This document shows positions 5,850 through 58,507 of a stretch of DNA of 61,543 nt, piece after piece. The stretch spans positions 1 through 61,543 of the forward strand of contig DYHH01000024.1 in the NCBI GenBank assembly GCA_020724265.1. The letters are read 5' to 3'. The translations under genes were made by a program, and so were the position numbers. The notes beneath the pieces were generated by a model. It made no database searches. It worked only from the letters and a program-made list of their open reading frames with translations, and was not told the origin of the DNA. Origin of the DNA: Melioribacter roseus. Its GTDB lineage: Bacteria; Bacteroidota; Ignavibacteria; Ignavibacteriales; Melioribacteraceae. The first letter of the stretch is position 1. Each line of letters starts with the position of its first letter.

Positions 5850-8800
5850 TTAGTATCCTTCTTGAAGTTCGATAATAAAAATAGTTCCTGATTGACGATT
5901 GCTATCAACAAGCGAAATATTTCCACCGTATTTTTTTAAGATGTTTTTTGCAGTGAACAATCCTCTCCCGGAACTACCGCTGGTTGAAAAACCGTCCTCA
6001 AAGATTTTTTCTTTTAGTTTGGTTGGAATTACTTTCCCCGTGTTTAAAAACTCAATAATTATTTTGGGGGCATGCCATTTTAAGAATATAGTTATTCTTC
6101 TATTACTATTGCCTTCAAAAGAAGTAAATGCATTTACAAATAAGTTATCGAGAATATCAGCAAGCTCAAATGGTTTTATTAATGCTCTTCGATTCCCGTT
6201 ATATTCTTTGAGAAGTTGAAAATCTATTTTTTTCTCAGTTAACAATTCGGAATGATTACTGCTTAATTGTGAAATAACCATGTGAGGATCGCATGAGTAA
6301 CCTTCAAAATAGTTGTCTCTTAATTCACTTAAATAGATTTTCAGCTGTTGAAATTTTAAAGCAAGATCTGTTTTATTTGATCCGGTTTTATTATTAAAAA
6401 AATGCTCTAACTCATTATCTATTTGAATTAATAACCTCGATATTTGTTTTAAATTGTTATTTGCTATTCCGGCTATTGATGCAAGTTCAATTATCTTTTT
6501 TATGTTGTCTTTTGTTAATCCTTTGTAAGTTTCAATTCGCTTTGACAATTGTTCTTCATACTCTGAATTTCTTGTTTCTGTAATATTCTTGAAAAAAAGT
6601 ATCAAACTGTTTAGATTTTTTAACGCCCATTCGCCATGTGAAAAATTTCTAAGTAGTTCGAATAATTCATCCCCTGCAATAATAGATACTCTTTTTTGTC
6701 CGATTAAACTGCTCCAGTAAAAGCCGAAATTTGTTAAAATAATTCCAACTATTAGTACAACCGCCGGTAAAATAAATTTTATTAAAGATGAAGTTGAGTT
6801 ATAAGATGCAATAAATATTATCCAGAAAAGAAGTAAGTGAGCCGAACCAATCCAATAAGCATTTTTCAACCCCCAATTAAATTTTTTTACTCCGAAGCGA
6901 ATTCCTAAATAAACAAACATGATTGCACATATAAAAAGCAAAATATAATATTGAACTTCTCTTTGAATTATGAAACGGAATAAAGAATTCGGCATTGTGT
7001 AAAAAGTTGAAGCAACCGGACCTAATTCATTTATGGTAATAGAAGAACCCGGTTTAATGTTCTTTTTAACCAACTCTTTCCCTTTATAAAATTTTACTCT
7101 TGCATTATAAACTTTTTTTTCATCGACACCAAAATGAGCTGTTAAATCGTTAAACTGATTTTCCCCAAAACTTTCTGACCCGATTTGTTTGTAGCTCCAC
7201 AATTTTTCTTCGTTACCTATTATCTCGTATAACCAGATTTTTGCTGAGATACCGAGGTTGTTACTAATTACTCCTTTCAAATTTATTTTTATATAATTGT
7301 TGTCATCTCTTGTATTTATCCAGAGAATGTTACTATTTGAAGAATAGCCGAATAGATCAATATCACCATCGTTATCAATATCTGCGGCAACAGCACCTTT
7401 AACTGTTGGAAATTTCAAGCCGTAAATTTCAGCTTCATCAACAAAGTATTCTCCGTTTTTATTTATCATCAGATAATTTTCATTAATTTCAGGATCTTTA
7501 AGAGTTATAAAAATATCATCAAACCCATCATTATTAAAATCTGCTACACAAATATTACGTATACTTACCCGTTCAATAAATTTTGAACTAATAGTGTTCA
7601 ATTTTGTTTGCTCGGTTACATCCTTAAAGTACCCCTTTCCGTCATTCTGATACAAAGTCAGGAAAAGAGTATCTGATAAGACCAATATGTCAAGATCACC
7701 ATCATTATCATAATCGAATGCTGAAGCACCATCAGATTCAGTCCTGATTAAATTTTCAAACCTGATTTGTGCTTCTTCCCGCCAATAGTTGCCATGTTTA
7801 ACTAATAACTTGTTTTTATCCCACATATTAACAATATAAATCTCATTATTATCGTCGTTAGTAAAGTCGGCAAAAATAGTTTGTACATTCCAACCTGATG
7901 TTGCTTTTATAAGTGATGTATCTATTGAAATATTTTTTCCCAATATCGAATTACGCAATATGATTTCTCCGCCTCTTGCAAAATTTTTACCATAGTAAAG
8001 TGAAAGGTTTATATCCAGGTCTCCGTCACCATCAAAATCAATTGTTGAAATATTTCTTATAGGTTTTTGGTTATAATCTTTCGGAAGATAAATTGTAACC
8101 GGCGGAACTTGAATTTTACTTTCTGTGTTGATAAATATTTTTACTGAAGCACCGTTTGAATCAATTGATGATACGATCATATCAATTTTGTCATCGCTGT
8201 TTATATCAGAAAAAGTAAAAACAGAAGAGCTTATATTTGGGAAATAGTCATTAAATATTGACGATTCCGTAAATGGCGAATTTGGTTTGTTTAGATAAAA
8301 ACTTGAATGCTCATCGGGATTTGAATTGAATACAAATAGATCGGGATTTCCTTCACCGGTAATATCGATAAATGCCGCACCCAACGTGTTTGAGTAAGGA
8401 GAACCTTCTACTTTATATGCTCGTGCTAAATTGATGAATGGCGAAATTTCAATTGGTGTGCCGATATAAATTTTACCCGAACGGCTTGAAACAATCAATG
8501 TTGAATCTGTAAGAAACTTGTAACTTGTCATTTCAAAATCGGAAGGAATTTTAACTGTTAATTTATTTTCTTCTGGTGAGTTAACATCAATTCCAACAAA
8601 TCCAAATTTTTCGAAAGAATATTTTTGCCAATCCTTGTTTTGGAATTTTCTCCCTTTAACAAAGACGTTATTTTCAAGTTGAAAAACATAACGAGAATTT
8701 ATAAGTACTTCGGTAATCGAGTTATCATCGAAATTGAATTGATAAAAATCTGCAGTTATCTCATCATCAATATCATATGAAACAAAATCTTGATGATTGA

Positions 8801-10039: not shown

Positions 10040-10264
10040 ATGCAAAAAGAGAAAATAAAAATAGAGTATAAATATAAACTTTGTCCTGTTTGCTCTTTCT
10101 TCTGCAACATAAATGAGCAAGATAAATTTTGTTCTTTTTGCGGGAGTCAATTAATTGAAGCATGTCCCGAATGCGGTGAAGCTATTACAAATCCATATGC
10201 AAAATTTTGTAAGTATTGCGGTAAAAATTATCCAGGTAGAAATACAAAAGGTAATTTAGAATAA
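10040..10264 (+). CDS. Double zinc-ribbon protein
   Basis: A 74-residue protein with four CxxC knuckles: CPVC, CSFC, CPEC and CKYC. They are arranged as two zinc ribbons, the second reading ACPECGEAITNPYAKFCKYCGK. It starts 16 bases after the preceding lipoprotein gene and ends before a strong terminator, so the two are probably one transcript. Zinc ribbons of this sort bind nucleic acid or protein; nothing here narrows that. Confidence 0.75.
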   Translation: MQKEKIKIEYKYKLCPVCSFFCNINEQDKFCSFCGSQLIEACPECGEAITNPYAKFCKYCGKNYPGRNTKGNLE

Positions 10265-10319
10265 TTGACATTGCATGCTCACCCAATGTTGCAATGGAAT
10301 GTGGTAAACGAGGGCTAAG

Positions 10320-10349
10320 AGAAGGGGTTTATACCCCTTCTTGTTTTTT
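10320..10349 (+). terminator. Rho-independent terminator
   Basis: GAAGGGGT (10321-10328) pairs with ACCCCTTC (10333-10340) across a TTAT loop and is followed by TTGTTTTTT. It lies about 55 bases after the zinc-ribbon gene. Confidence 0.9.
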
Positions 10350-10449
10350 CGGGTTTGCATAACCTAAAACTGGTATTAGAAAGTGTTTGATTTAAAAAAT
10401 AATATGTAAGAATAATAATTGAGACAATTAATTGTTTTGGGAGGGTGCG

Positions 10450-12028: not shown

Positions 12029-14761
12029 ATGAAAAAAAATGTTTTATTTTTAGTTGGGGTGTTATTGCTGGTTTTTAATGACATAACTTTTACACAAACC
12101 AAGCTAAACAAGATTTTGAGTAATCCAACAGGTTCTTCTTATCAGAAAGTCGAATTTGTCAATGAAAATGTTGGATGGATAGTTGACGAAGACGGTGTAC
12201 GGAAAACAAATGACGGCGGAAAGTCCTGGGAAATTCAAATTACTTTTGATCGAGACCGATATATGAAATTTGACGGTTATGCAGATTTTATTAATTCCCA
12301 AGTAGGGTACTTCATTCTTAATTCAAACAGTTCAAATGGTTATCCTCCTTATGATGTTTTTCTCTTTAAAACAATTGACGGAGGGAATACCTGGACACGG
12401 AGTAAAATTGAAGGGTCTGATTTTGTAAGCAATTTTAGTGTAAGACAACTTACATTTCTAAATGAGAATTATGGTTTTGCAATTAATTGGTATTGGCAAA
12501 CTCCACAGATTCTTCAACTAATTCGAACAACAAATGGTGGTTCAACATGGGAGTTAGTTAAGAATGACTTCGGATATATTGACCGGTTATATTTTGGCGA
12601 CCAATTAAATGGCTGGGCAATTTCTTCGAATTCTACAACTCTTTATAAAACTACTGACGGGGGATTTACATGGTCTGAGGTCCAAATTCAAGGAGCAACT
12701 TATTACGTTGATATTTCAATAATTGGATTACAAGTTTGGGTTAAAGCCCGAGGTAACGGGGAAGCCATATTCTATTCCGGTGATAGTGGCATAACATGGA
12801 GTAATATAGGTTCCCAAGTACCAAGCGGAAGCCCTCTAATTATGTTCGATGATAAGAATGGCATAATACATGGAAACGTTACAACAGACGGAGGATATAC
12901 ATGGACTCTGAAAGATAATGCAAGTTATCTGGGTAGTTCCGGTTTTAATAATATCTGGTTTTATCGATCTGCCCCTAGTGGTTATCCTGCTTATTATAAA
13001 ACAAATGATTTATTTGAAAGTTCTGAAATTGTATTCCCTCTTTCGAATTCTTCTTATCGCAGTATCAAAATGCTGAATGATGATATTATCGTAATTGCGT
13101 TTAGCAATGGGGAGATAATTCGTTCAGTTGACGGTGGAAAAACCTGGAGTGCGATCTGGGATATATTTAATTGGAGAGAACCAGGATATACTTTTGGAAT
13201 AAGTGACATATCTTTTGCAGATGATGCTGTTGGGGTTGCGGTTGGATCACATTGGCAGCTTACACATGCGTACACTCTTGGATTTATTGCTCAAACAACA
13301 AATTCCGGAGCAAGCTGGGAAATGGTTTTGAACTACACGGAAGAAACAAATTCGAGCGCAATATCATCTGTTGCTTATGCAAATGATCAATTCTTGGCAA
13401 ATACTAATGGAAGCATGCTCTATTCGTCTGATGAAGGCAGAAATTGGACTCGAATTGAAAGTCAATTCGGTCCGATTTTTAATATGCAATTCATTGGTAA
13501 TACTGGTTTTGGAATTGGTTCTGCACTAAAAAGAACAAATGATTTTGGTGCAAATTGGACAGATGTTCTTGGTAATGCTAGTAATCCTTTAAGTTATGTA
13601 TCAAATAATTTGGTTTATGTTTCTCAAGGCGGTAATATGAATAAAAGTACTGATGGTGGTAATTCATGGGAAATAATTGAATGGCCAAACATAAATAGTA
13701 GATATGCGCTATTTCATGATAGCATGATTGGAGTTGCCCCAGGAGGAGGGAGCGATCCATATTGGTCCCAAACATTTATGACGAAAGATGGCGGACAATC
13801 CTGGGAGTTAATTTATTCTTTACCGTACGGTGCTGACGCATCTATAAATCCATCATCTCTTGATTTTAGATCGGCAGATAATGGTTTTGTTATAGACGGG
13901 GGTAATACACTTTTCACTACCAAAAGCTATGGAATAATTGATACAACAAGTTCGGGCGGTGGTGAACCCGAACAAAGAGTTGTAATAGACGAAAAATTTG
14001 ACGATGCACAATTCCCGCCAAATGGTTGGACAGTAAATCAAACTCATCAAACAAATACTTGGATGGCTGGTAATATTACAGACCATAATTTCAGCTCAAT
14101 TGACCCGACTAATGTAAACTCTGCAATTTGTCCATGGATAGCGGCAGATCAAAATGAATGGTTAATAACACCTTCGTTTGCACTTGCAAGTGGAACAGCT
14201 ACAGTGGAATTTTATGCCGGTTATAGCACAGATTGGCTAGCATATGCAACATTAAAATTGCAGATATCTACAAACGGAGGAACAAATTGGACTCAAATTT
14301 GGGAAGCTGTAAATGATGGGCAGCCATGGAGCTGGAGATATCAAAATGTAGATATTACACAATATGCAAATAACCCAAACATGAAATTAGCATGGCAGTA
14401 TGTAGGTAATGATGGAGATGCAACGGCAATTGATAATGTAAAACTAACCGGGTTTGTTAATGTAACTGATGTAAAAGAAGAAAATGAAAAAATACCAAGT
14501 ACTTATGAACTTTCACAAAATTATCCCAATCCATTTAATCCAACTACAAAAATTAATTACTCTATTCCAATCAGTTCAAAAGTAAGTTTAATTGTTTATG
14601 ATATACTTGGAAGAGAAGTAAAATCGTTAGTAAATGAATTTCAGAATGCAGGAAGTTATTCAATTTATTTTAATGCAGAAGGTTTATCGAGCGGGGTTTA
14701 TTTTTATAGACTTACATCAGGTCAGTTCTCAGAAACTCGAAAATTGATAATCTTAAGATAA
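12029..14761 (+). CDS. Secreted T9SS-sorted protein with Asp-box (YCF48-like) repeats
   Basis: A 910-residue exported protein. The signal peptide covers residues 1-23 (ends ITFTQ). About 12 Asp-box motifs of the TDGGxTW or TNDGGKSW type run through residues 45-620 and predict one or two beta-propellers of the BNR/YCF48 kind. A galactose-binding-like 'choice-of-anchor' domain follows at roughly 640-815 (DEKFDDAQFPPNGW, NEWLITPSF). The C-terminus is a type-A type IX secretion signal starting YELSQNYPNPFNPTT and ending GVYFYRLTSGQ...RKLIILR. It should be transported across the outer membrane and anchored or released. Ligand unknown. The ATG is preceded by GTGAGGGTG. Confidence 0.9.
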   Translation: MKKNVLFLVGVLLLVFNDITFTQTKLNKILSNPTGSSYQKVEFVNENVGWIVDEDGVRKTNDGGKSWEIQITFDRDRYMKFDGYADFINSQVGYFILNSNSSNGYPPYDVFLFKTIDGGNTWTRSKIEGSDFVSNFSVRQLTFLNENYGFAINWYWQTPQILQLIRTTNGGSTWELVKNDFGYIDRLYFGDQLNGWAISSNSTTLYKTTDGGFTWSEVQIQGATYYVDISIIGLQVWVKARGNGEAIFYSGDSGITWSNIGSQVPSGSPLIMFDDKNGIIHGNVTTDGGYTWTLKDNASYLGSSGFNNIWFYRSAPSGYPAYYKTNDLFESSEIVFPLSNSSYRSIKMLNDDIIVIAFSNGEIIRSVDGGKTWSAIWDIFNWREPGYTFGISDISFADDAVGVAVGSHWQLTHAYTLGFIAQTTNSGASWEMVLNYTEETNSSAISSVAYANDQFLANTNGSMLYSSDEGRNWTRIESQFGPIFNMQFIGNTGFGIGSALKRTNDFGANWTDVLGNASNPLSYVSNNLVYVSQGGNMNKSTDGGNSWEIIEWPNINSRYALFHDSMIGVAPGGGSDPYWSQTFMTKDGGQSWELIYSLPYGADASINPSSLDFRSADNGFVIDGGNTLFTTKSYGIIDTTSSGGGEPEQRVVIDEKFDDAQFPPNGWTVNQTHQTNTWMAGNITDHNFSSIDPTNVNSAICPWIAADQNEWLITPSFALASGTATVEFYAGYSTDWLAYATLKLQISTNGGTNWTQIWEAVNDGQPWSWRYQNVDITQYANNPNMKLAWQYVGNDGDATAIDNVKLTGFVNVTDVKEENEKIPSTYELSQNYPNPFNPTTKINYSIPISSKVSLIVYDILGREVKSLVNEFQNAGSYSIYFNAEGLSSGVYFYRLTSGQFSETRKLIILR

Positions 14762-48482: not shown

Positions 48483-48525
48483 GTGTCTAAAACTTTTGAT
48501 TTTAAAAACAAACGAGGGTATTCCG

Positions 48526-49509
48526 TTGGAAATAACTGAACTTAATGAAAAAATTAAACGCGAAAGCGAATTTATCGATGTTCTTTTTAATGAAATCGGT
48601 AAAGTCATTGTTGGACAAAAAGATATGGTTGAACGCCTAGTGATCGGATTACTTGGCAATGGTCACATACTTTTAGAAGGTGTTCCCGGCTTAGCTAAAA
48701 CACTTGCTATCAAATCACTTTCTTCTTCAATGAAAGCTAAATTTCAGAGGATTCAATTCACTCCGGATTTGTTACCAGCCGATTTAATCGGTACGCTAAT
48801 TTATAATCAGAAAGACGGACAATTTGCTATAAAAAAGGGTCCCATTTTTTCTAATTTTATTTTAGCAGATGAAATTAACCGTGCACCTGCAAAGGTTCAA
48901 AGTGCATTGCTTGAAGCCATGCAGGAAAGACAAGTCACGATTGGTGAAAATACTTTTAAATTAGATGAACCATTTTTAGTACTAGCTACGCAAAACCCAA
49001 TTGAACAAGAAGGGACTTATCCGCTACCTGAAGCTCAAGTTGATCGTTTTATGTTGAAGGTGAAAATTACCTATCCTAATCGTAATGAAGAATTAAAAAT
49101 AATGAGACAAAATATTACTACTGAATTTCCGACAGTTAGCCCGGTAATTGACCCTGCAGATATTTTGAAAGCAAGAAAATTGGTAAATGAAATTTACGTT
49201 GACGAAAAAATTGATAAATATATTTTGGATATTGTTTTCGCAACACGTTCTCCAAAAGATTTTGGTCTTGACAGACTGACGGATTTAATTAGTTACGGTG
49301 GTTCACCAAGAGCGACAATTAACTTGGCTTTGGCATCACGCTCAATGGCATTCATAAAACGAAGAGGTTACGTTATCCCGGAAGATGTTAGAGCTGTTAG
49401 TATGGATGTTCTGCGGCATAGAGTTGCTGTTACTTATGAAGCCGAAGCTGAAGACATTACTTCGGAAAATATAATTGCAGATATACTTAATACAATTGAA
49501 GTTCCTTAA
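48526..49509 (+). CDS. MoxR-family AAA+ ATPase
   Basis: A 327-residue MoxR ATPase. TTG 48526 is chosen because GAGGG lies seven bases upstream; a TTG ten codons earlier has no binding site. Walker A is in GNGHILLEGVPGLAKTLAIK; Walker B is ILADEINRAPAKVQSALLEAM; sensor 1 is in LATQNPIEQEGTYPLPEAQ; the C-terminal lid follows. It acts as a chaperone for metal or protein assembly with the downstream DUF58 and VWA proteins. First gene of the Bat operon. Confidence 0.95.
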   Translation: MEITELNEKIKRESEFIDVLFNEIGKVIVGQKDMVERLVIGLLGNGHILLEGVPGLAKTLAIKSLSSSMKAKFQRIQFTPDLLPADLIGTLIYNQKDGQFAIKKGPIFSNFILADEINRAPAKVQSALLEAMQERQVTIGENTFKLDEPFLVLATQNPIEQEGTYPLPEAQVDRFMLKVKITYPNRNEELKIMRQNITTEFPTVSPVIDPADILKARKLVNEIYVDEKIDKYILDIVFATRSPKDFGLDRLTDLISYGGSPRATINLALASRSMAFIKRRGYVIPEDVRAVSMDVLRHRVAVTYEAEAEDITSENIIADILNTIEVP

Positions 49510-49613
49510 TAAAATAATTTTATAATTCCTTTTTTAACTCTTAGTCATAATCTTAATCCAAAGTTTGATACATATGAGAGTAAGAGAAAGACTATGATTA
49601 AAACTGATTAACT

Positions 49614-50489
49614 ATGCTTGCAAAAGAGTTATTAAAACAAGTAAGACAGATTGAAATACGAACTCGCGGAATTGTTAACGAAGTCTTCTCCGGAGAATAT
49701 CATTCGGTATTTAAAGGTAGGGGGATGGAATTTTCCGAAGTGCGTGAGTATCAAATTGGCGATGACATTCGTAATATTGATTGGAATGTAACTGCAAGAT
49801 TCGGGCATCCTTACATCAAAATATTTGAAGAAGAACGTGAACTTACGGTAATGCTCCTAATTGATATGAGCGGTTCATTATTATTCGGAAGTGCGGAGAA
49901 AACAAAACAAAGAATTGCTGCGGAACTATCGGCTGTACTTGCCTTTTCTGCATTGAAAAATAATGATAAAGTCGGGTTAATCCTTTTTACCGACCAAATT
50001 GAAAAATTTGTTCCGCCAAGAAAAGGAAGAAGTCACGTTTTAAGAATTATCCGTGATATTCTTTCATTTGAACCAAGCGGCAATAAAACCGATTTGCGAA
50101 GTGCTCTTGAATATTTTAATTCGGCAATTAAAAAGAAAAGTATTGCATTCTTAATTTCCGATTTTATGGATGAAGGTTATGAAAAGATCATTCGTATAGT
50201 TGGCAAAAAACACGATTTAATCGGGATTGTTCTTGAAGACCCCCGCGAGAAAGTATTACCCAAAGCCGGCTTAATTAAATTTCGGGATGCTGAAACCGGT
50301 GAAATTCGTGTTATAGATACTAGCAGTAAAATTGTACGTGATGAGTTTTATACTTTTAGAAAATATAACGAAGAAAAAAGAACACAGCTTTTCCGTTCCA
50401 GCAGAATAGATAAAATAGAAGTCGATACCGATAAATCATATGTTAAACCCCTAGTTGATTTTTTTAGACTGCGTGAGAAAAGATGGTAA
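49614..50489 (+). CDS. DUF58 domain protein (VWA-like)
   Basis: A 291-residue cytoplasmic protein of the DUF58 family always found beside MoxR. Motifs: GRGMEFSEVREYQIGDDIRNIDWNVTARFG and VWA-like LLIDMSGSLLFGS (MIDAS DMSGS). It probably binds the MoxR ATPase. It overlaps the next gene by seven bases. Confidence 0.93.
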   Translation: MLAKELLKQVRQIEIRTRGIVNEVFSGEYHSVFKGRGMEFSEVREYQIGDDIRNIDWNVTARFGHPYIKIFEEERELTVMLLIDMSGSLLFGSAEKTKQRIAAELSAVLAFSALKNNDKVGLILFTDQIEKFVPPRKGRSHVLRIIRDILSFEPSGNKTDLRSALEYFNSAIKKKSIAFLISDFMDEGYEKIIRIVGKKHDLIGIVLEDPREKVLPKAGLIKFRDAETGEIRVIDTSSKIVRDEFYTFRKYNEEKRTQLFRSSRIDKIEVDTDKSYVKPLVDFFRLREKRW

Positions 50490-51427
50490 TTAAAATTGTT
50501 AAATATTTTTTGGTATTTATTTTCCTCTCACTTCATTTGTTTGCGCAGGAATTTCGTGTACTAACAGAAGTGGACTCTTCAAAGTATTTAATCGGCGATT
50601 ATATTAATATCAAGTACCGTGTTGAATATATAGACGGTGTAGAGTTTCAAATGCCGTCCATAAAAGATTCTTTAAAAGAACTTACATTCATAAAAGAACT
50701 TCCGATTCAACAGTATAAAAAAGATAATTATATTATTGATGAACACACTTTCGTCTTTTCAAAATATGATTCTGCCGGAGTTGTAGTTCCTTCAATCAAA
50801 TTCGAATACACTGATTCAAATAAAAAAGTAAAAATAAGTTACTCAAATCAAGTTGAGTTACTTGTAACTACAATGGAAGTTAATCTTCAAGAAGATATTC
50901 AAGATGTAAAAGCTCCTATTCGTATTCCACTTAATTGGTGGATGATATTGTTGTATATTCTTATTCTGATTCTATTAACCGCATTGATTTATTTCTTATA
51001 CAAAAGATATATAAAGAAGAAAGAAACATTAATTGAATCTAAACCGGTAATCAAAATTCCACCACACGAAATTGCAATGAAAGCATTAAGAAGTTTGGAA
51101 GAACAAAAACTTTGGCAGCAAGGCAAAGTAAAAGAATATCATTCGGAATTAACAGATATAATTCGCCGCTATTTCGAAGGAAGATTTAATTTTCTGGCAA
51201 TGGAAATGCCTTCTTCTGAAGTAATTGAAAATCTTAAAAAACTTAGTAATGGTAAATTATTCGAAAAAGTAGAAAGCTTTTTCAGCAATGCAGACCTAGT
51301 AAAATTTGCTAAGTTTCAACCTCTTCCTTCTATTAATGAAAAGATGATGATACAAGCATACGATATCGTGAAATCAACAAAAGAAACTGTTGCAAACGAA
51401 ACGGAGGGAGCGAAATCCGATGTTTGA
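50483..51427 (+). CDS. Membrane protein of the Bat operon with large periplasmic domain
   Basis: A 314-residue protein with a signal peptide (ends HLFAQ), a beta-rich periplasmic domain to about residue 145, one membrane helix (WWMILLYILILILLTALIYFL near 152-173) and a cytoplasmic tail with helices LEEQKLWQQGKVKEYHSELTD. The position between DUF58 and BatA and the overall plan match the unnamed/DUF4381-like members in Bacteroidota Bat operons. Role unknown. Confidence 0.75.
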   Translation: MVIKIVKYFLVFIFLSLHLFAQEFRVLTEVDSSKYLIGDYINIKYRVEYIDGVEFQMPSIKDSLKELTFIKELPIQQYKKDNYIIDEHTFVFSKYDSAGVVVPSIKFEYTDSNKKVKISYSNQVELLVTTMEVNLQEDIQDVKAPIRIPLNWWMILLYILILILLTALIYFLYKRYIKKKETLIESKPVIKIPPHEIAMKALRSLEEQKLWQQGKVKEYHSELTDIIRRYFEGRFNFLAMEMPSSEVIENLKKLSNGKLFEKVESFFSNADLVKFAKFQPLPSINEKMMIQAYDIVKSTKETVANETEGAKSDV

Positions 51428-52421
51428 TTTTACCAACGTTGAATTTGCTTATCCTTATGTATTGTACGGGTTGATCCTAATTCCACTACTTGCCCTATGG
51501 TATTGGAAACGAAATAAAAAACTCACACCCGATATAACTTATTCGTCGTTAAAAATATTCGGTAGTTTGAAACCGACTTTGCGGGAAAGATTACGACACG
51601 TTCCGTTTTTATTAAGATTATTTGCTCTTTCACTTTTAATTGTGGGATTAGCAAGACCACAAACTTATTCAACCGGCGAAACAGTTTATACCGAAGGTAT
51701 TGATATAGTTCTTGTCCTTGATATTTCCGGAAGTATGCTTGCCGAAGATTTCAAGCCAAACAGAATTGAAGCAGCAAAAAATGTTATTAATGATTTTATT
51801 GACGGAAGAGTTAGTGATAGAATCGGACTAGTAATTTTTGCACGAGAAAGCTTTACTCAATGTCCGCTAACAATTGATTATTCCGTATTAAAGAATCTTT
51901 TAAAAGATATTACTAGCGGTATGGTAACCGATGGAACAGCGATTGGCAATGCAATTGCAAACGGTGTGAACAGATTAAAGGACAGCGATGCGAAAAGCAA
52001 AGTTATGATTTTACTTACAGATGGTGTTAATAACGCAGGAGAAGTTGATCCTTTAAGTGCCGCACAAATTGCAGAAACTTTTGGTGTTAGAATTTATTCA
52101 ATCGGTGTAGGTTCTCGAGGCGAAGCTCCTTATCCCTTCAATACCCCGTTTGGTAAACGATATCAGATGGTACCGGTTGAAATCGATGAAGAATTATTAC
52201 AGCAGATTAGCGCTCAAACCGGCGGAAGATATTTTAGAGCAACAAACAATGAAAAATTGATGGAAATCTACAGAGAAATTGATGAACTTGAGAGAAACCG
52301 TGTTGAAGTTCTTTCGTATAGAAGCACTAAAGAACTATTTTATTCATGGGTTGGTGCCGGACTTATTCTTTTGCTTTTTGAAATAGGGTTACTGAGAACT
52401 TATTTGAGACGATTACCGTGA
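51420..52421 (+). CDS. batA: BatA: VWA membrane protein
   Basis: A 333-residue inner-membrane protein. ATG 51420 with GGAGGG upstream is used; it overlaps the preceding stop by eight bases. Two N-terminal hydrophobic segments, a VWA domain with MIDAS DISGS (VLVLDISGSMLAEDFKPNR), and a C-terminal membrane helix (FYSWVGAGLILLLFEIGLL). In Bacteroides the Bat proteins support aerotolerance. BatB overlaps by four bases. Confidence 0.93.
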   Translation: MFDFTNVEFAYPYVLYGLILIPLLALWYWKRNKKLTPDITYSSLKIFGSLKPTLRERLRHVPFLLRLFALSLLIVGLARPQTYSTGETVYTEGIDIVLVLDISGSMLAEDFKPNRIEAAKNVINDFIDGRVSDRIGLVIFARESFTQCPLTIDYSVLKNLLKDITSGMVTDGTAIGNAIANGVNRLKDSDAKSKVMILLTDGVNNAGEVDPLSAAQIAETFGVRIYSIGVGSRGEAPYPFNTPFGKRYQMVPVEIDEELLQQISAQTGGRYFRATNNEKLMEIYREIDELERNRVEVLSYRSTKELFYSWVGAGLILLLFEIGLLRTYLRRLP

Positions 52422-53467
52422 GTAGTTTCAGATTTGCACATAGCGATTATTTATATCTTCTATATTTAATACCAATTCTTATAGTATTGTTTTGGTTGAC
52501 GCAAAGAAAAAGTAAAAAAATATTAGAAGAGTTTGCATCGATTAAGATGCGGTCGATTTTAATGCCGTATTACAGCCGTGTAAAGACTTTCGTTAAGTTC
52601 GGTATTATATCGTTCAGTGTAGTTCTATTGATATTTACATTGGCTAATCCGCAAGTAGGTTCCAAAATTGAAGAAGTTAAACAGGCTGGAATTGATGTTT
52701 ATATTTTGCTTGATGTTTCTAATAGTATGCAGGCTGAAGATATTAAACCCAACCGACTGCAAAAAGCGAAGTATGAAATTTCAAAATTAATTAATCGTTT
52801 ACGTGGAGACAGAATCGGCTTAATTGTTTTTGCCGGTCAAGCTTTCGTACAATTCCCGCTTACAACGGACTATTCGGCTGCAGATCTCTTTTTAAGTGCG
52901 GTAGACAATTCAACTGTGCCGCAGCAAGGAACTGCAATTTCAAATGCAATTGAATTATCTTTACAATCATTCAAGCATGATGAAGAGACAAAAAAAGCAA
53001 TTATTATTATTACAGACGGCGAAGACCACGAAGGTAACTTAAAAGAATCGGTTGATAATGCTGTTAAACAAGGTGTTGTAGTTTATACTATTGGAATGGG
53101 TTCACCAACCGGCTCTCCAATCCCGGTTTATAATTCTTACGGTATGCAAATAGATTTTAAGAGAGACAACGAAGGTAATGTCGTTCTCACAAAACTTGAT
53201 GAAGCAACATTACAGGAAATTGCTCAACTCGGAAACGGTGTGTATTACAGAAGTACAACAACCAGTGATGAGCTGAATTCGATTTATAACGATCTTTCGA
53301 AACTTGAGGCGACGGAATTTGGTACAACACGTATTACTGATTATGAAGACAGATATTATTATTTTTTAATTCCCGCTTTGATGCTTTTACTTGCAGAACT
53401 GTTTATCTCTAATAAAAAATCTCAACTGTTTAGAAAATTAGATGAAAAAGCAGCGGAGAAATTATAA
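52418..53467 (+). CDS. batB: BatB: VWA membrane protein
   Basis: A 349-residue paralogue of BatA starting at GTG 52418, overlapping the BatA stop (GTGA). Two N-terminal membrane helices; VWA MIDAS DVSNS in VYILLDVSNSMQAEDIKPNR; C-terminal helix FLIPALMLLLAELFI. It is followed immediately by batC. Confidence 0.93.
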   Translation: MSSFRFAHSDYLYLLYLIPILIVLFWLTQRKSKKILEEFASIKMRSILMPYYSRVKTFVKFGIISFSVVLLIFTLANPQVGSKIEEVKQAGIDVYILLDVSNSMQAEDIKPNRLQKAKYEISKLINRLRGDRIGLIVFAGQAFVQFPLTTDYSAADLFLSAVDNSTVPQQGTAISNAIELSLQSFKHDEETKKAIIIITDGEDHEGNLKESVDNAVKQGVVVYTIGMGSPTGSPIPVYNSYGMQIDFKRDNEGNVVLTKLDEATLQEIAQLGNGVYYRSTTTSDELNSIYNDLSKLEATEFGTTRITDYEDRYYYFLIPALMLLLAELFISNKKSQLFRKLDEKAAEKL

Positions 53468-54211
53468 ATGATGAAAAAAAATTTTCTATTTATATTATTA
53501 ATAGCACTTTGTGGAACGATTTACCCTCAGAGTGTTAGGTCACTTAATAATAGCGGCGTTGATAAATATGAAGAACATATTTTCCCCGATGCAGAAGTAA
53601 ATTTTAAAAAAGCTATTGAAGAAAATGCCGAAACTTTTTCTGCACATTATAATTTAGGCTCAGCACTTTACAAGCAAGAAAGATATGATGAAGCAATTAA
53701 GAGTTATCAAAATGCTTTATCCCTTGCAGAAAGTGAGGGGCAAAAATCTCAAATATTTTACAATAGGGGAAATGCTCTACTTAAAAGCCAAAAGCTTCAA
53801 GAGAGTATTGATTCTTACAAAGAAGCATTAAAAATAAATCCAAATGATCTTGAAGCAAAATATAATTTATCATACGCTTTGGAATTATTAAAGAATCAAC
53901 AAGATCAGCAGCAAAATCAAAATCAAGATCAACAAGACCAAAACCAGGATCAAAACCAAGATAAGCAGCAGGATCAAAACCAGCAGGATAACAACCAGGA
54001 TCAGGACAAGAACGATCAGCAGCAAAATCAACAAGATCAGCAAGAGAAAGACCAGCAAAATCAACAACAACAGCAGCAGCCAAAGAAAGATCAGATATCT
54101 AAAGAAGAAGCTGAACGAATTTTGCAGGCATTAAAAAATAACGAAGCCGAACTTCAAAAAGAATTAAGAAAACAAAAAGGAAAACAAGTTAAGACTGCCA
54201 AAGATTGGTAA
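53468..54211 (+). CDS. batC: BatC: TPR protein with Gln-rich segment
   Basis: A 247-residue exported protein (signal peptide ends TIYPQ). Three TPR repeats span residues 25-140 (AHYNLGSALYKQERYDEAIKS; ILFYNRG-type; LEAKYNLSYALELLK). A segment of about 60 residues rich in Gln, Asn, Asp and Lys (QQDQQQNQNQ and similar) follows, encoded by CAA/CAG-GAT repeats at 53894-54085. The C-terminal 45 residues are charged helix. The TPR and tail fit BatC; the Gln-rich part varies between organisms. Confidence 0.88.
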   Translation: MMKKNFLFILLIALCGTIYPQSVRSLNNSGVDKYEEHIFPDAEVNFKKAIEENAETFSAHYNLGSALYKQERYDEAIKSYQNALSLAESEGQKSQIFYNRGNALLKSQKLQESIDSYKEALKINPNDLEAKYNLSYALELLKNQQDQQQNQNQDQQDQNQDQNQDKQQDQNQQDNNQDQDKNDQQQNQQDQQEKDQQNQQQQQQPKKDQISKEEAERILQALKNNEAELQKELRKQKGKQVKTAKDW

Positions 54212-54213
54212 TA

Positions 54214-56037
54214 ATGATGTATAAATATGTGTTATACATAATGTTAGTTTTATTTTTTGTTTCGATTTCCTTTGCACAGAAGTTTGAAGCAACTGCTGAT
54301 AAAACTACTGTCGGTGAAAACGAACGTTTCCAGGTTTATTTTACGTTTGAGGGACAAAGCTCCAATGTAAGCGGCTTTAAAGCACCTTCATTTGAAGGCT
54401 TTCGTGTTTTGAGCGGTCCGAATCAATCTACAAATATGCAGATTATTAACGGTCAAGTCTCAAGTTCAATTACTTTTTCGTTTATTCTTGTCCCAACTCA
54501 GGTCGGAGATTTTACAATCGGTAAAGCTTCGGTAAATTATTCAGGCAGTCAATTCGAAACAAACCCGTTAACAATAAAAGTTGTGCCAGGAAGCGCAACC
54601 ACTCAGCAGCAATCACAGGAAGGAGAAATCTCTCTTGAAGAACTTCGTAAGAGTGTTTTCATAATTGCAACTGCAGATAAGAGAAATGTTTATCAAGGTG
54701 AGCAAGTTACGGTTACTTATAAACTATATACTAAGTTACAGATTGCTTCAATTCAAATAGCTAAACTTCCTACATATACCGGATTTTGGCAGGAAGAAAT
54801 TCCTACTAGTAATACTATCAATTGGGAAATTGAAATGTATAACGGCGAAAGATTTAGAACAGCCGTTATAAAAAAGGTTGCGTTATTCCCATCTAAAGCA
54901 GGTGAATTAAGTGTAACTCCTTTTGAATTAGACGTACCTATAGTTGTAAAAAAAAGAAGAACATCTAATACTTTTTTTGATGATTTTTTCAACGATTCGT
55001 TTTTCGGAAGAACTGAAACTATTGATTATACTGCTAAATCAAATACAATAAAAATTAATGCAGATCCTTTACCCCAGACAAATATACCAGCATCATTTAA
55101 CGGTACAGTTGGTGAATTTAATTTAACTTCAGAAATAAGTACAACATTTTTAAAAGCAAATGAGTCATTATCGCTGAAATATACAGTCAGCGGCAACGGT
55201 AATATTCAATTACTTGATCTTCCTAAGTTACAGCTTCCAGCCGGATTTGAAATGTATGAACCCAAGTCTAATTTGACTATAAATAGAAGCAATAAAATAT
55301 CCGGTACAAAAACTTTCGAATATTTAGTGATCCCTCGAGTTCAAGGTAAAAAGAAAATTCCGGCAATGGAGTTTTCATTTTTTAATCCCACTAAAAGACA
55401 ATATATAACACTATTTTCACCGGAATACGAAATAGAAGTTGAAAAAGGAGACGGTGCTGTTGCATCAACAGGAGGATTTTCAAAAGAGGATATTAGGTTA
55501 CTTAATGAAGATATAAGATTTATTAAAGTCTCCGATTTTAAATTTAAAAGCAGAAACGGAAATCAATTAATTCCTACATGGTTCTGGATCGGATTAATTT
55601 TGCCTGCATTGTTCTTATCTGTGATTTTGGGAGTTCATAAAAGAAATCAAAAGCTTTCAACAAACACACAATTACTTAAATACCGTAAAGCAGAAAAGAT
55701 TGCAAAGAAAAGATTAAAGACAGCACAAAAATTAATTTCCGGCAGTGAGAGCTTAAAATTTTATTCAGAAATTTCACAAGCAATGACGGGTTATCTTCAA
55801 GATAAACTTGATATTCAAAAATCGGATTTCACATTAGATAAAACGATTACAAAACTACAAGAAAGTAATATTTCGGAAGACCTGCAGCAGAAAGTAAAAG
55901 ATATTTATGAAAGATGTGAGTTCGCAAGATTTTCACCAGCAGCACAAAATTTAACAGCAGAACAAAGCATGTATGATGAAGCATTAAATGTTATCGTTAA
56001 AATTGAACATCAACTCAACTCAAATAAGATAAGATAA
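54214..56037 (+). CDS. batD: BatD: oxygen tolerance protein
   Basis: A 607-residue membrane protein. Starts considered: TTG 54205 overlaps batC by seven bases; ATG 54214 (or 54217) is preferred, giving MMYKYVLYIMLVLFFVSISFAQ as signal peptide. The mature part has repeated immunoglobulin-like strands typical of BatD (FEATADKTTVGENERFQVYFTF), a membrane helix near residue 455 (IGLILPALFLSVILGV), and a cytoplasmic tail. Its stop overlaps the batE ATG by one base (TAATG). Confidence 0.92.
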   Translation: MMYKYVLYIMLVLFFVSISFAQKFEATADKTTVGENERFQVYFTFEGQSSNVSGFKAPSFEGFRVLSGPNQSTNMQIINGQVSSSITFSFILVPTQVGDFTIGKASVNYSGSQFETNPLTIKVVPGSATTQQQSQEGEISLEELRKSVFIIATADKRNVYQGEQVTVTYKLYTKLQIASIQIAKLPTYTGFWQEEIPTSNTINWEIEMYNGERFRTAVIKKVALFPSKAGELSVTPFELDVPIVVKKRRTSNTFFDDFFNDSFFGRTETIDYTAKSNTIKINADPLPQTNIPASFNGTVGEFNLTSEISTTFLKANESLSLKYTVSGNGNIQLLDLPKLQLPAGFEMYEPKSNLTINRSNKISGTKTFEYLVIPRVQGKKKIPAMEFSFFNPTKRQYITLFSPEYEIEVEKGDGAVASTGGFSKEDIRLLNEDIRFIKVSDFKFKSRNGNQLIPTWFWIGLILPALFLSVILGVHKRNQKLSTNTQLLKYRKAEKIAKKRLKTAQKLISGSESLKFYSEISQAMTGYLQDKLDIQKSDFTLDKTITKLQESNISEDLQQKVKDIYERCEFARFSPAAQNLTAEQSMYDEALNVIVKIEHQLNSNKIR

Positions 56038-56795
56038 TGAAGAAGATTGAACCGTTGATACTCTTTACTTTTTTCTTTCTTGTAACTATAAATTCTCAAC
56101 CTGTTGAACAGTTGATGCAGGAGGGTAACCAATATTATATAAATGAGCAATGGCAGGATGCAGTTGAAAGTTATAATAAAATTTTAAATCAAGGATATCA
56201 AAGCGCATCACTTTACCATAATTTAGGTAATGCACATTTTAAGATAGGAGATCTTGGTGAAGCAATCCTGAATTACGAACGTGCCTTAAAATTAGAACCA
56301 CGTGATGAAGATATCAGGTTCAATTTGCGACTTGCGAACGCAAGAACAATTGATAACATTAAAGAAGTTCCGCAAATATTTCTTGTTGAATGGTGGAATG
56401 GTTTTATATCCGTTTTCACAGTTTCCGGGTGGGCGTTTATTTTCCTTTTAATTTATTTGATAATGTTAGCCTTTATCGGAATTTATTTCCTTTCACAAAA
56501 TATCAATCTGCAGCGGTTTAGTATTTACGGCGGATTTGCAAGTCTAATTTTACTTTTTATTACTCTATTGATTTTTATTTCTGCTTACGAAAGAGAAGCT
56601 TCAACAAATTACGGAATCATACTTGTAAATTCTGTTAATGTAAAAGTTTCGCCGACATATGAAAGCAGTGACTCATTTATCATTCACGAAGGATTAAAGT
56701 TTGAAATACAAGATCAACTTGATGATTGGGTTAGAATAAAATTAGCCGACGGAAAAGTCGGTTGGCTGCCGGGTAATACTTTCGGAAAAATTTAA
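56037..56795 (+). CDS. batE: BatE: TPR and SH3-domain membrane protein
   Basis: A 252-residue protein with a signal peptide (ends TINSQ), two TPR repeats (YHNLGNAHFKIGDLGEAILNYERALKL), two or three membrane helices around 120-190 and a C-terminal SH3-like domain (SVNVKVSPTYESS...DWVRIKLADGKVGWLP). This is the BatE arrangement. Last gene of the Bat operon; no clear terminator is visible. Confidence 0.88.
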   Translation: MKKIEPLILFTFFFLVTINSQPVEQLMQEGNQYYINEQWQDAVESYNKILNQGYQSASLYHNLGNAHFKIGDLGEAILNYERALKLEPRDEDIRFNLRLANARTIDNIKEVPQIFLVEWWNGFISVFTVSGWAFIFLLIYLIMLAFIGIYFLSQNINLQRFSIYGGFASLILLFITLLIFISAYEREASTNYGIILVNSVNVKVSPTYESSDSFIIHEGLKFEIQDQLDDWVRIKLADGKVGWLPGNTFGKI

Positions 56796-56960
56796 AATTA
56801 TTCAAAAACCGGCTCCATTTTTCCCTCGCAGTTAATTCCCAAAACTAAAATTTTTGATTTGAAGTTTTGTTCGATTAGAAACTTTTAAAAATATTTCATT
56901 ATATTGAACCAAAATCGGATTTGAGGTGTTAAAATATTGTCAAAACGAAAGGAGTGCGAT

Positions 56961-57284
56961 ATGAAAAGGTTTTTTGTTATCTCAATTACGGCAATAATTA
57001 CATTGGGGTTCACTTTTACAGCCGATACCTCTCAGAAAACGGCTGAAACTAATTGTCCGTATCTGAATGAAATTCATTCTAAAATAAAGAATGATAAATC
57101 TTCCTGTCCGTATTTGGAAAGTAAAATATCAAAAAAGAACGAAAATAAAGCGAGTACTAATAGCTGTCCGTTCACCGGTAAAATTGAAAATGAAAATTCC
57201 AAATGTCCATTTTTAATTAAGGAAAAAAATCAGAAGACAGATAATATTACACCGGCAAAGCATAAGAAACTAAGAATTTCTTAA
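56961..57284 (+). CDS. Small secreted protein with four CP[YF] repeats
   Basis: A 107-residue exported protein. ATG 56961 is used because AAAGGAG precedes it; an earlier TTG at 56937 adds eight residues in front of the signal peptide. Signal peptide residues 1-21 (MKRFFVISITAIITLGFTFTA). The mature chain holds four repeats of a cysteine-proline-aromatic motif at C32 (CPYL), C49 (CPYL), C69 (CPFT) and C82 (CPFL), each followed by charged sequence, spaced 17, 20 and 13 residues. There are no other cysteines. It is Lys/Asn-rich and otherwise disordered-looking. Family not recognised. CP motifs occur in haem-regulatory sites, but that is only a suggestion. Confidence 0.65.
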   Translation: MKRFFVISITAIITLGFTFTADTSQKTAETNCPYLNEIHSKIKNDKSSCPYLESKISKKNENKASTNSCPFTGKIENENSKCPFLIKEKNQKTDNITPAKHKKLRIS

Positions 57285-57297
57285 ATCCATTTCTGTT

Positions 57298-57365
57298 GGG
57301 TTGATTAAAATCTAATTCACATTGACAAAAAATTATCATGAGTTTTGATCAACCCTCTTTTTTTA
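57298..57365 (+). terminator. Long-loop terminator
   Basis: GGGTTGAT-T-AAAA (57298-57310) pairs with TTTT-G-ATCAACCC (57343-57355), one mismatch, across a 32-base loop and is followed by TCTTTTTTTT. Confidence 0.75.
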
Positions 57366-57415
57366 ATTAACAATCCTAATCGAACACATCAACTTTTCTT
57401 ATATTTGCAATCACA

Positions 57416-58507
57416 ATGAAATCAAAATCGAAAAAGTACAGCAACATAAAGCTCGGTATAGGTATCGGGAAGGGAGCAGTAACATTTATATTAATACTTC
57501 TTTTTGTATTGCTTGGCTACAGTCAATCACTTGAAGAATTAATTAGAAGTTATGTTCTAAACGATTATTTAGTCTTGCTGATTTTCATTTTTGTAATTGG
57601 ATTATCTTCTTCAATAATTTTCTTCCCAATTAATTTTTACAGTGAATTTATTCTTGAACATAAATACGAGCTTTCAAATCAAACATTTGTTAAATGGCTT
57701 TGGGAAAATTTTAAGGGTACGTTAGTTGCCGGTGCAATCGGCATTCCATTATTGTTGGCTTTTTACTTTTTCTTGAATTTATTCGGGAGTATTTGGTGGC
57801 TTCCTTTTGCAATATTAATGTTCATCGTTTCGGTTTTACTCGCTCAAATTGTACCGATTATTATACTACCCCTATTCTATAAAGTATCTCCGATTGAAAA
57901 TGAAGAGTTAAAGGAAAGCATAATTCGTTTAGCAAAAGAAGTAGGAATGAATGTTCAAAATGTATTTTCGTTTAATATGAGTAAAAATACAAAAAAGGCT
58001 AATGCAGCTTTTACCGGACTCGGTAAAACAAAAAGAATTATTCTTGGTGATACTCTTTTAGAAAACTATTCTACAGAAGAAATCGAAACAGTAATTGCAC
58101 ACGAGTTGGGTCATTACAAATACAAACATATTGTAAAAAACATTTTGATCGGAACAATCTTTAGTTTTCTAACTCTGTTTTTAATTGCTACACTTTATGA
58201 ATTATCAATTAACTGGTTTGATTTCTCAACAATAACGCAAATCGCAGCGCTACCATTACTTACTTTGTGGGGAATGTTAATCGGATTAATTATATCGCCC
58301 ATCTCAAATATTATTTCGCGAAAATATGAATATCAAGCGGATAAATACGCTGTTGAATCCACAAAAAATCCTGATGCTTTTAAACAAACTCTGATAAAAC
58401 TCAACGAACAGAATTTGGGTGATGAAAATCCGCATCCGTTTGTTGAGTGGTTTTTTTACAGCCATCCTTCAATAAAAAATCGTATTAAAGCGATTGATGC
58501 AGTGTAA
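57416..58507 (+). CDS. M48 family metalloprotease (Ste24/CAAX-type)
   Basis: A 363-residue membrane zinc protease. HELGH (catalytic HExxH) in IETVIAHELGHYKYKHI and the third ligand glutamate in YEYQADKYAVE are intact. Six or so membrane segments, including a long N-terminal part absent from HtpX, favour the Ste24/CAAX-prenyl-protease group over HtpX. Bacterial members process membrane proteins. It stands alone behind a terminator. Confidence 0.93.
   Translation: MKSKSKKYSNIKLGIGIGKGAVTFILILLFVLLGYSQSLEELIRSYVLNDYLVLLIFIFVIGLSSSIIFFPINFYSEFILEHKYELSNQTFVKWLWENFKGTLVAGAIGIPLLLAFYFFLNLFGSIWWLPFAILMFIVSVLLAQIVPIIILPLFYKVSPIENEELKESIIRLAKEVGMNVQNVFSFNMSKNTKKANAAFTGLGKTKRIILGDTLLENYSTEEIETVIAHELGHYKYKHIVKNILIGTIFSFLTLFLIATLYELSINWFDFSTITQIAALPLLTLWGMLIGLIISPISNIISRKYEYQADKYAVESTKNPDAFKQTLIKLNEQNLGDENPHPFVEWFFYSHPSIKNRIKAIDAV

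Follow-up and report, generated by a model that had tools for sequence, protein, structure and literature searches.

An undescribed protein family of Ignavibacteria with conserved Cys-Pro-aromatic motifs that point to a haem- or metal-binding 'sponge'

A four-cysteine protein gene downstream of a Bat operon

The DNA analysed here (the window) is the whole 61,543-nucleotide stretch of Melioribacter roseus contig DYHH01000024.1 (assembly GCA_020724265.1). Downstream of a Bat operon, and on the same strand, lies an open reading frame for a 107-residue protein, referred to below as the CP[YF] protein after its repeated motif. The features of the locus are as follows.

48496..56795, + strand: Bat operon upstream, with AAA ATPase, DUF58-type, BatA/B-type VWA, TPR and BatD-type genes (assigned by eye)
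56948..56954, + strand: AAAGGAG, ribosome-binding-like, before the ATG (from the sequence)
56961..57284, + strand: coding sequence of the 107-aa CP[YF] protein, stop included (translation, homologues, dN/dS)
56961..57023, + strand: signal-like N-terminus, approximately residues 1–21 (by eye; helix at 2–18 in the model)
57054..57062, + strand: CPY motif 1, C32 (CP[YF][LIM] in all 28 family members)
57105..57113, + strand: CPY motif 2, C49 (translation, alignment)
57165..57173, + strand: CPF motif 3, C69, followed by TGK (translation, alignment)
57204..57212, + strand: CPF motif 4, C82 (translation, alignment)
57298..57364, + strand: terminator-like hairpin and U run (from folding; unlisted by a simple scan)
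57416..58507, + strand: Ste24-type M48 protease carrying an N-terminal CAAX-protease domain (Pfam PF01435 and PF16491, both above cut-off)

The protein contains exactly four Cys residues, C32, C49, C69 and C82, in CPY, CPY, CPF and CPF triplets respectively. When residues 22–107 were shuffled 200,000 times, more than two CP[YF] triplets were never obtained, and among 199 stop-to-stop frames of at least 60 residues in the window one other contained the triplet, a single time. Translation and shuffling therefore confirmed the four spread motifs, every Cys followed by Pro and an aromatic residue, described in the initial annotation of this DNA, and a chance origin of the motifs was ruled out by the shuffles together with the homologues described below. 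The gene is present in a single copy in this genome. Folding of positions 57280–57370 produced a long hairpin at 57298–57355 that has 14 outer pairs and precedes a U run (-16.4 kcal/mol; z -2.47, with 4 of 200 shuffles equally good), while a simple scan for terminators with loops of 3–8 listed none 3' of the gene; the claim that the gene has its own terminator is thus borne out by the folded structure but not by the scan.

The N-terminus resembles a Sec signal when judged by eye from the sequence, although it may alternatively be an uncleaved membrane anchor, and the protein is apparently exported to the periplasm or the cell surface. Asp, Glu, Lys and Arg make up 31% of the mature part and disorder-promoting residues 71% of the chain counting from residue 19. 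AlphaFold, supplied with nine sequences, predicted a disordered chain (mean pLDDT 56.5, pTM 0.16) in which the signal region is helical and two further short helices have low confidence. Composition and model both support the earlier description of the chain as charged and unstructured. No convincing relative emerged when PDB sequences were searched by profile, and the sole match, to a CCCH zinc-finger protein (E 1.6), was judged to be due to chance.

Family membership and motif conservation

Relatives were sought with the window protein in 58 related genomes and subsequently with a 12-row profile in 164 genomes of the order at E values up to 0.01. The profile matched in 32 of the latter, and 28 matches were retained once the frames had been read. 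The resulting alignment of 28 members, including the window protein, draws 15 from one taxonomic family (f1) and 13 from another (f3). Left out were a 52-residue frame that was not gene-like (G144), a match within a 414-residue frame (G143), a match containing a stop (G105, locus L076) and a small exported-looking protein with two CPY triplets in other Cys surroundings (G073, locus L090). The last, which begins at position 8416 of its locus (+ strand), contains CSGVCPY and GCVCPY, matched the profile marginally (E 0.0045) and is perhaps a remote variant of the family.

A class-wide profile search yielded matches in 24 of 391 genomes, 20 of them within the order and four marginal; among these four a CP-bearing frame on the matched strand was shown only for L139, a YHS-like protein. 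Across the phylum 14 of 395 sampled genomes matched, all inside the order. Both searches scored a subset (mostly 12) of the first-look candidates in every genome, and absences are accordingly soft. The search for CP[YF] proteins in the phylum proposed in the initial annotation, run here by profile, thus places relatives in the order only, the four marginal class matches aside. The gene appears patchy within the order, since no match was obtained in G001 or G003, both incomplete genomes of the same genus as the window.

Other candidate relatives were rejected. Nineteen viral-contig stretches fit a search pattern and none codes for a relative, and a motif cluster in G019:C7 turned out to be no fusion protein but a pair of short frames containing repeated sequence. 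A DNA pattern for CP[YF]-x-G was uninformative in the 58 related genomes, giving approximately 160 matches against approximately 150 with the reversed control. At locus L233, short frames at 10052–10369 and 13697–13873 (+ strand) both carry repeated RARxPCPYI-type sequence and resemble an interspersed repeat more than a gene.

Among the 28 members, 109 of 111 mature Cys residues are followed by Pro and 101 lie in CP[YF]. The first motif is CP[YF][LIM] in every member. Of the 81 later motifs, 43 have Ser or Thr at the fourth position, and CP[YF][ST]GK is a frequent form there. The number of CP dipeptides per protein ranges from 2 to 6, four being the commonest (11/28), and their spacing from 2 to 29 residues, with a median distance between Cys residues of 15. 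This variability in number and spacing suggests independent sites and argues against one fixed metal centre. Across nine pairs the CP-x positions were 73–100% identical; linker identity was 27–62% in eight of these pairs and 95% in the remaining one, whose members are very close. The contrast is somewhat inflated because the alignment program favours motif matching. A simple Nei-Gojobori count gave dN/dS of 0.02–0.23 in six of nine pairs and was not estimable in three; dS exceeded 1 in five of the six, and comparison with a relative of the same genus (L063) gave approximately 0.16 with dS near saturation. Taken with the acceptance of 28 relatives, the low dN/dS indicates that the 107-residue frame is a real gene, and together with the contrast between motifs and linkers it indicates that the frame is translated and that the motif is the part kept by selection. 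The initial annotation had made its reading depend on conservation of the cysteines in homologues, and Cys, Pro and the aromatic residue proved to be the conserved part.

Genomic neighbourhood and the Bat–M48 interval

In family f1, 13 of 15 loci have Bat genes just upstream of the CP[YF] gene, in some cases separated from it by a small ORF, and in 11 of the 15 the CP[YF] gene is followed directly by that of an M48 protease. In the window the last Bat-operon gene before the CP[YF] gene is TPR/SH3 by Pfam. The gene was initially described as lying alone after the Bat operon; it does stand by itself between the TPR/SH3 and M48 genes, but that position is itself conserved in f1. The adjacent protease raises an improbable alternative, that the protein is a precursor cut by the Ste24-type M48 enzyme into Cys-bearing peptides, or a structural peptide forming disulphide cross-links in the envelope. 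Repetition of the motif along Lys-rich linkers and a C-terminal Ser, Thr, Ile or Val in all 28 members would fit processing of this kind, but none of the 28 C-termini shows a CaaX box, no conserved repeated cleavage site was seen by eye between the motifs, and M48 is not adjacent in f1 loci L061, L062, L065 and L073.

In f3, the source of 13 of the 28 members, the gene lies away from Bat in the fetched loci. There it follows an MFS-type transporter gene in six loci, is divergent from a TauE/SafE-like permease gene in L078, L081 and L083 and adjoins a YceI-like protein gene in L077 and L078, all three labels being assigned by eye. In L068, also of f3, the CP[YF] gene lies 88 bp from a gene for an exported protein that is YHS-like (24.0 bits, under the cut-off of 30.3). 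No haem genes were recognised among the inspected neighbours.

Eighty Ignavibacteria loci were fetched through the M48 protease and 75 were used, those with M48 near the locus end (L148, L208, L211, L214 and L216) being left out. A CP[YF] gene lies no more than 3 kb upstream of M48 in seven of the 80, and at approximately 5.8 kb in L153. In the 75 loci an upstream Bat TPR gene was lacking in 14, far away in three and close in 58; for these 58 the gap to M48, here called the slot, was at most 212 bp in 32 and at least 432 bp in 26. When gaps of at least 300 bp were compared under one rule applied to all gaps of the same loci, with a crude signal-peptide criterion, 17 of 22 slot gaps and 3 of 116 others contained a small ORF bearing a signal and no fewer than three Cys residues. 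Two ORFs of L203 were tallied under the other gaps, though on reading the locus they belong to the slot. Because the loci are related, the Fisher value of 1.1e-14 for this comparison is not a true probability and denotes association only. By type, slot occupants are CP[YF], YHS-like, and CC-rich or Cys-tailed exported ORFs; the types other than CP[YF] have Cys in common with CP[YF] proteins but not the CP[YF] motif itself.

Exported YHS-like proteins were observed between the Bat operon and M48 in L184, L196, L205 and L210 (by Pfam) and in L201, L203 and L207 (by eye), with a CC-rich exported protein beside the YHS-like one in L201 and L203. The slots of L147, L164, L192, L197 and L219 contain small exported Lys-rich proteins that have either CC pairs or Cys in the tail, and Pfam detected nothing over cut-off in the slot proteins of L147, L164 and L219.

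Several types of small Cys-bearing ORF in the slot, and Bat genes directly upstream of the CP[YF] gene in most f1 loci, are consistent with a periplasmic thiol redox buffer, in which sacrificial or relay Cys residues would work with the Bat proteins to trap oxidants or pass on reducing equivalents. Bat has been suggested as an exporter of reducing power into the periplasm, reducing agents having partly rescued a mutant (Tang 1999, as cited in PMC3557215), and this would accord with such a role. We regard a redox buffer as rather unlikely, given that the f3 genes lie away from Bat and that the window protein has single Cys residues only, without the CPYC/CXXC pair of glutaredoxin or thioredoxin, and no confident fold. 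Moreover, no role of Bat in oxidative stress was found in Leptospira biflexa (PMC3557215). Aerobic potential does not separate carriers of the gene from non-carriers, COX1 being present in 14 of 15 and 41 of 43 respectively.

Comparison with known families and putative ligands

The initial annotation did not recognise the protein type, and this holds against Pfam, for which 12 members were scanned, and against NCBIfam, which returned for the window protein a single match at E 0.53. Pfam matches to the window protein were all sub-threshold, the best being to the presequence of aminolevulinate synthase (ALAS), which is haem-regulatory (PF09029; E 7.7e-4, 20.3 bits where the cut-off is 21), followed by cytochrome haem lyase (PF01265; E 0.027) and DUF2020 (E 0.094). 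At E values up to 1, the ALAS presequence matched six of the 12 members and cytochrome haem lyase three. The ALAS match survived weakly in three of five shuffles that kept the triplets (E 0.019–0.35) and in none of five full shuffles, indicating that the resemblance comes from the haem-type CP motif and not from ancestry. The window protein does not contain the CXXCH site of c-type cytochromes.

Three kinds of known protein provide comparisons. Metallothionein-like proteins are small and unstructured without ligand, and Cys is their conserved feature. CP[YF] proteins are similar in these respects but differ in that their Cys residues are mostly single, far apart and each accompanied by Pro and nearly always an aromatic residue. 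The YHS/TRASH group (PF04945, PF24273, PF08394) includes small exported proteins of the slot whose first knuckle, CPVSGE or CPVSKE, is near to CPYSGK, but the second knuckle (CCxxC) is missing from CP[YF] proteins: no CC pair was seen by eye in the 28 alignment rows, and PF04945 did not appear among the Pfam matches to the window protein up to an E value of 10. Haem regulatory (CP) motifs, as in the ALAS presequence, the N-terminus of cytochrome haem lyase and Irr, also have an aromatic or hydrophobic residue directly after Cys-Pro. ALAS carries several copies of the CP motif in disordered segments (PMC9329541) and bacterial Irr a Cys-Pro-Trp (PMC11442138). The CP[YF] protein differs from these haem regulatory proteins in consisting of the motifs alone, attached to no enzyme or regulator, and in being apparently exported.

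A rival reading is an envelope scavenger of soft metals (the Cu, Zn, Cd, Hg class), in which CP-x-x-G-K would act as half zinc-knuckles sharing metal between motifs and the protein would be equivalent in role to the YHS/TRASH-like and CC-rich slot proteins. We consider this unlikely, though it would account for the exported YHS/TRASH-like occupants of the slot, for the YHS-like neighbour in L068 and for the frequency of CP[YF][ST]GK in later motifs. Plain thiolate binding needs neither Pro nor an aromatic residue, no metal-efflux gene was recognised beside the CP[YF] gene in the window, and YHS domains were not associated with the gene (9 of 15 carriers against 24 of 43 non-carriers, and none in the window genome).

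The initial annotation named haem binding, metal binding and redox activity together as possible roles. Tentatively, and as a possibility short of probable, we favour a multivalent extracytoplasmic thiolate sponge with haem as the likeliest putative ligand. The exported, disordered chain would display several independent Cys-Pro-aromatic thiolate sites, each reversibly taking one ligand, with Pro orienting the Cys and the aromatic residue packing on or co-ligating the ligand, the way haem regulatory motifs do. It is in this sense that the protein would act as a modest-affinity multivalent buffer, most likely for ferric haem and possibly for soft metals too. Whereas a conserved translated gene, its predicted disorder, motif-centred conservation and a position conserved in one family are shown above, export, the free thiols, the ligand and the buffering role are inferred. 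Cys-based haem motifs as short peptides bind ferric haem at approximately 0.4–6.4 uM, yet CP alone is insufficient for haem and negative net charge appears inhibitory (PMC6356037). Net charge is positive in 23 of the 28 members. Against haem, the motifs of the window protein are without the positive charge typical of good haem peptides, its four motif 9-mers having net charges of -1, -1, 0 and 0; family-wide, 31 of 109 such 9-mers are negative, 43 neutral and 35 positive. HmuY, sought by profiles in the 58 relatives, was likewise not associated with the gene (1 of 15 carriers, 7 of 43 non-carriers). The gene's patchy distribution and the failure to recognise haem genes among the inspected neighbours also count against this reading. 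For the motif itself the nearest precedent is haem, whilst the other slot occupants favour general thiol or metal chemistry and suggest that all have a thiol function in common, not necessarily one involving haem.

Literature searches found no paper joining Ignavibacteri with heme regulatory motif and none joining Cys-Pro motif with heme, periplasm and bacteria, and searches with motif strings, or with Ignavibacteri, cysteine-rich and periplasm, returned nothing that looked related. The host bacteria rely on cytochromes. If the peptides bind haem, they would represent a disordered, multi-site extracytoplasmic haem buffer made of little besides haem-regulatory-type motifs.

A broader reading, which we regard as doubtful, is that the Bat-to-Ste24 slot of Ignavibacteria accommodates fast-evolving exported thiol proteins whose several sequence types are unrelated, with CP[YF] as the haem-loading version, and supplies Bat with its thiol- or ligand-buffering partner. 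The function of the Bat operon is still called elusive (PMC3557215). Such a slot would account for the long-standing idea that Bat provides the periplasm with reducing power, and would give the operon concrete, testable candidate thiol partners. As a separate observation, a TPR protein of the Bat operon in the window (53468–54211, + strand) contains a long Gln/Asp/Asn-rich low-complexity stretch.
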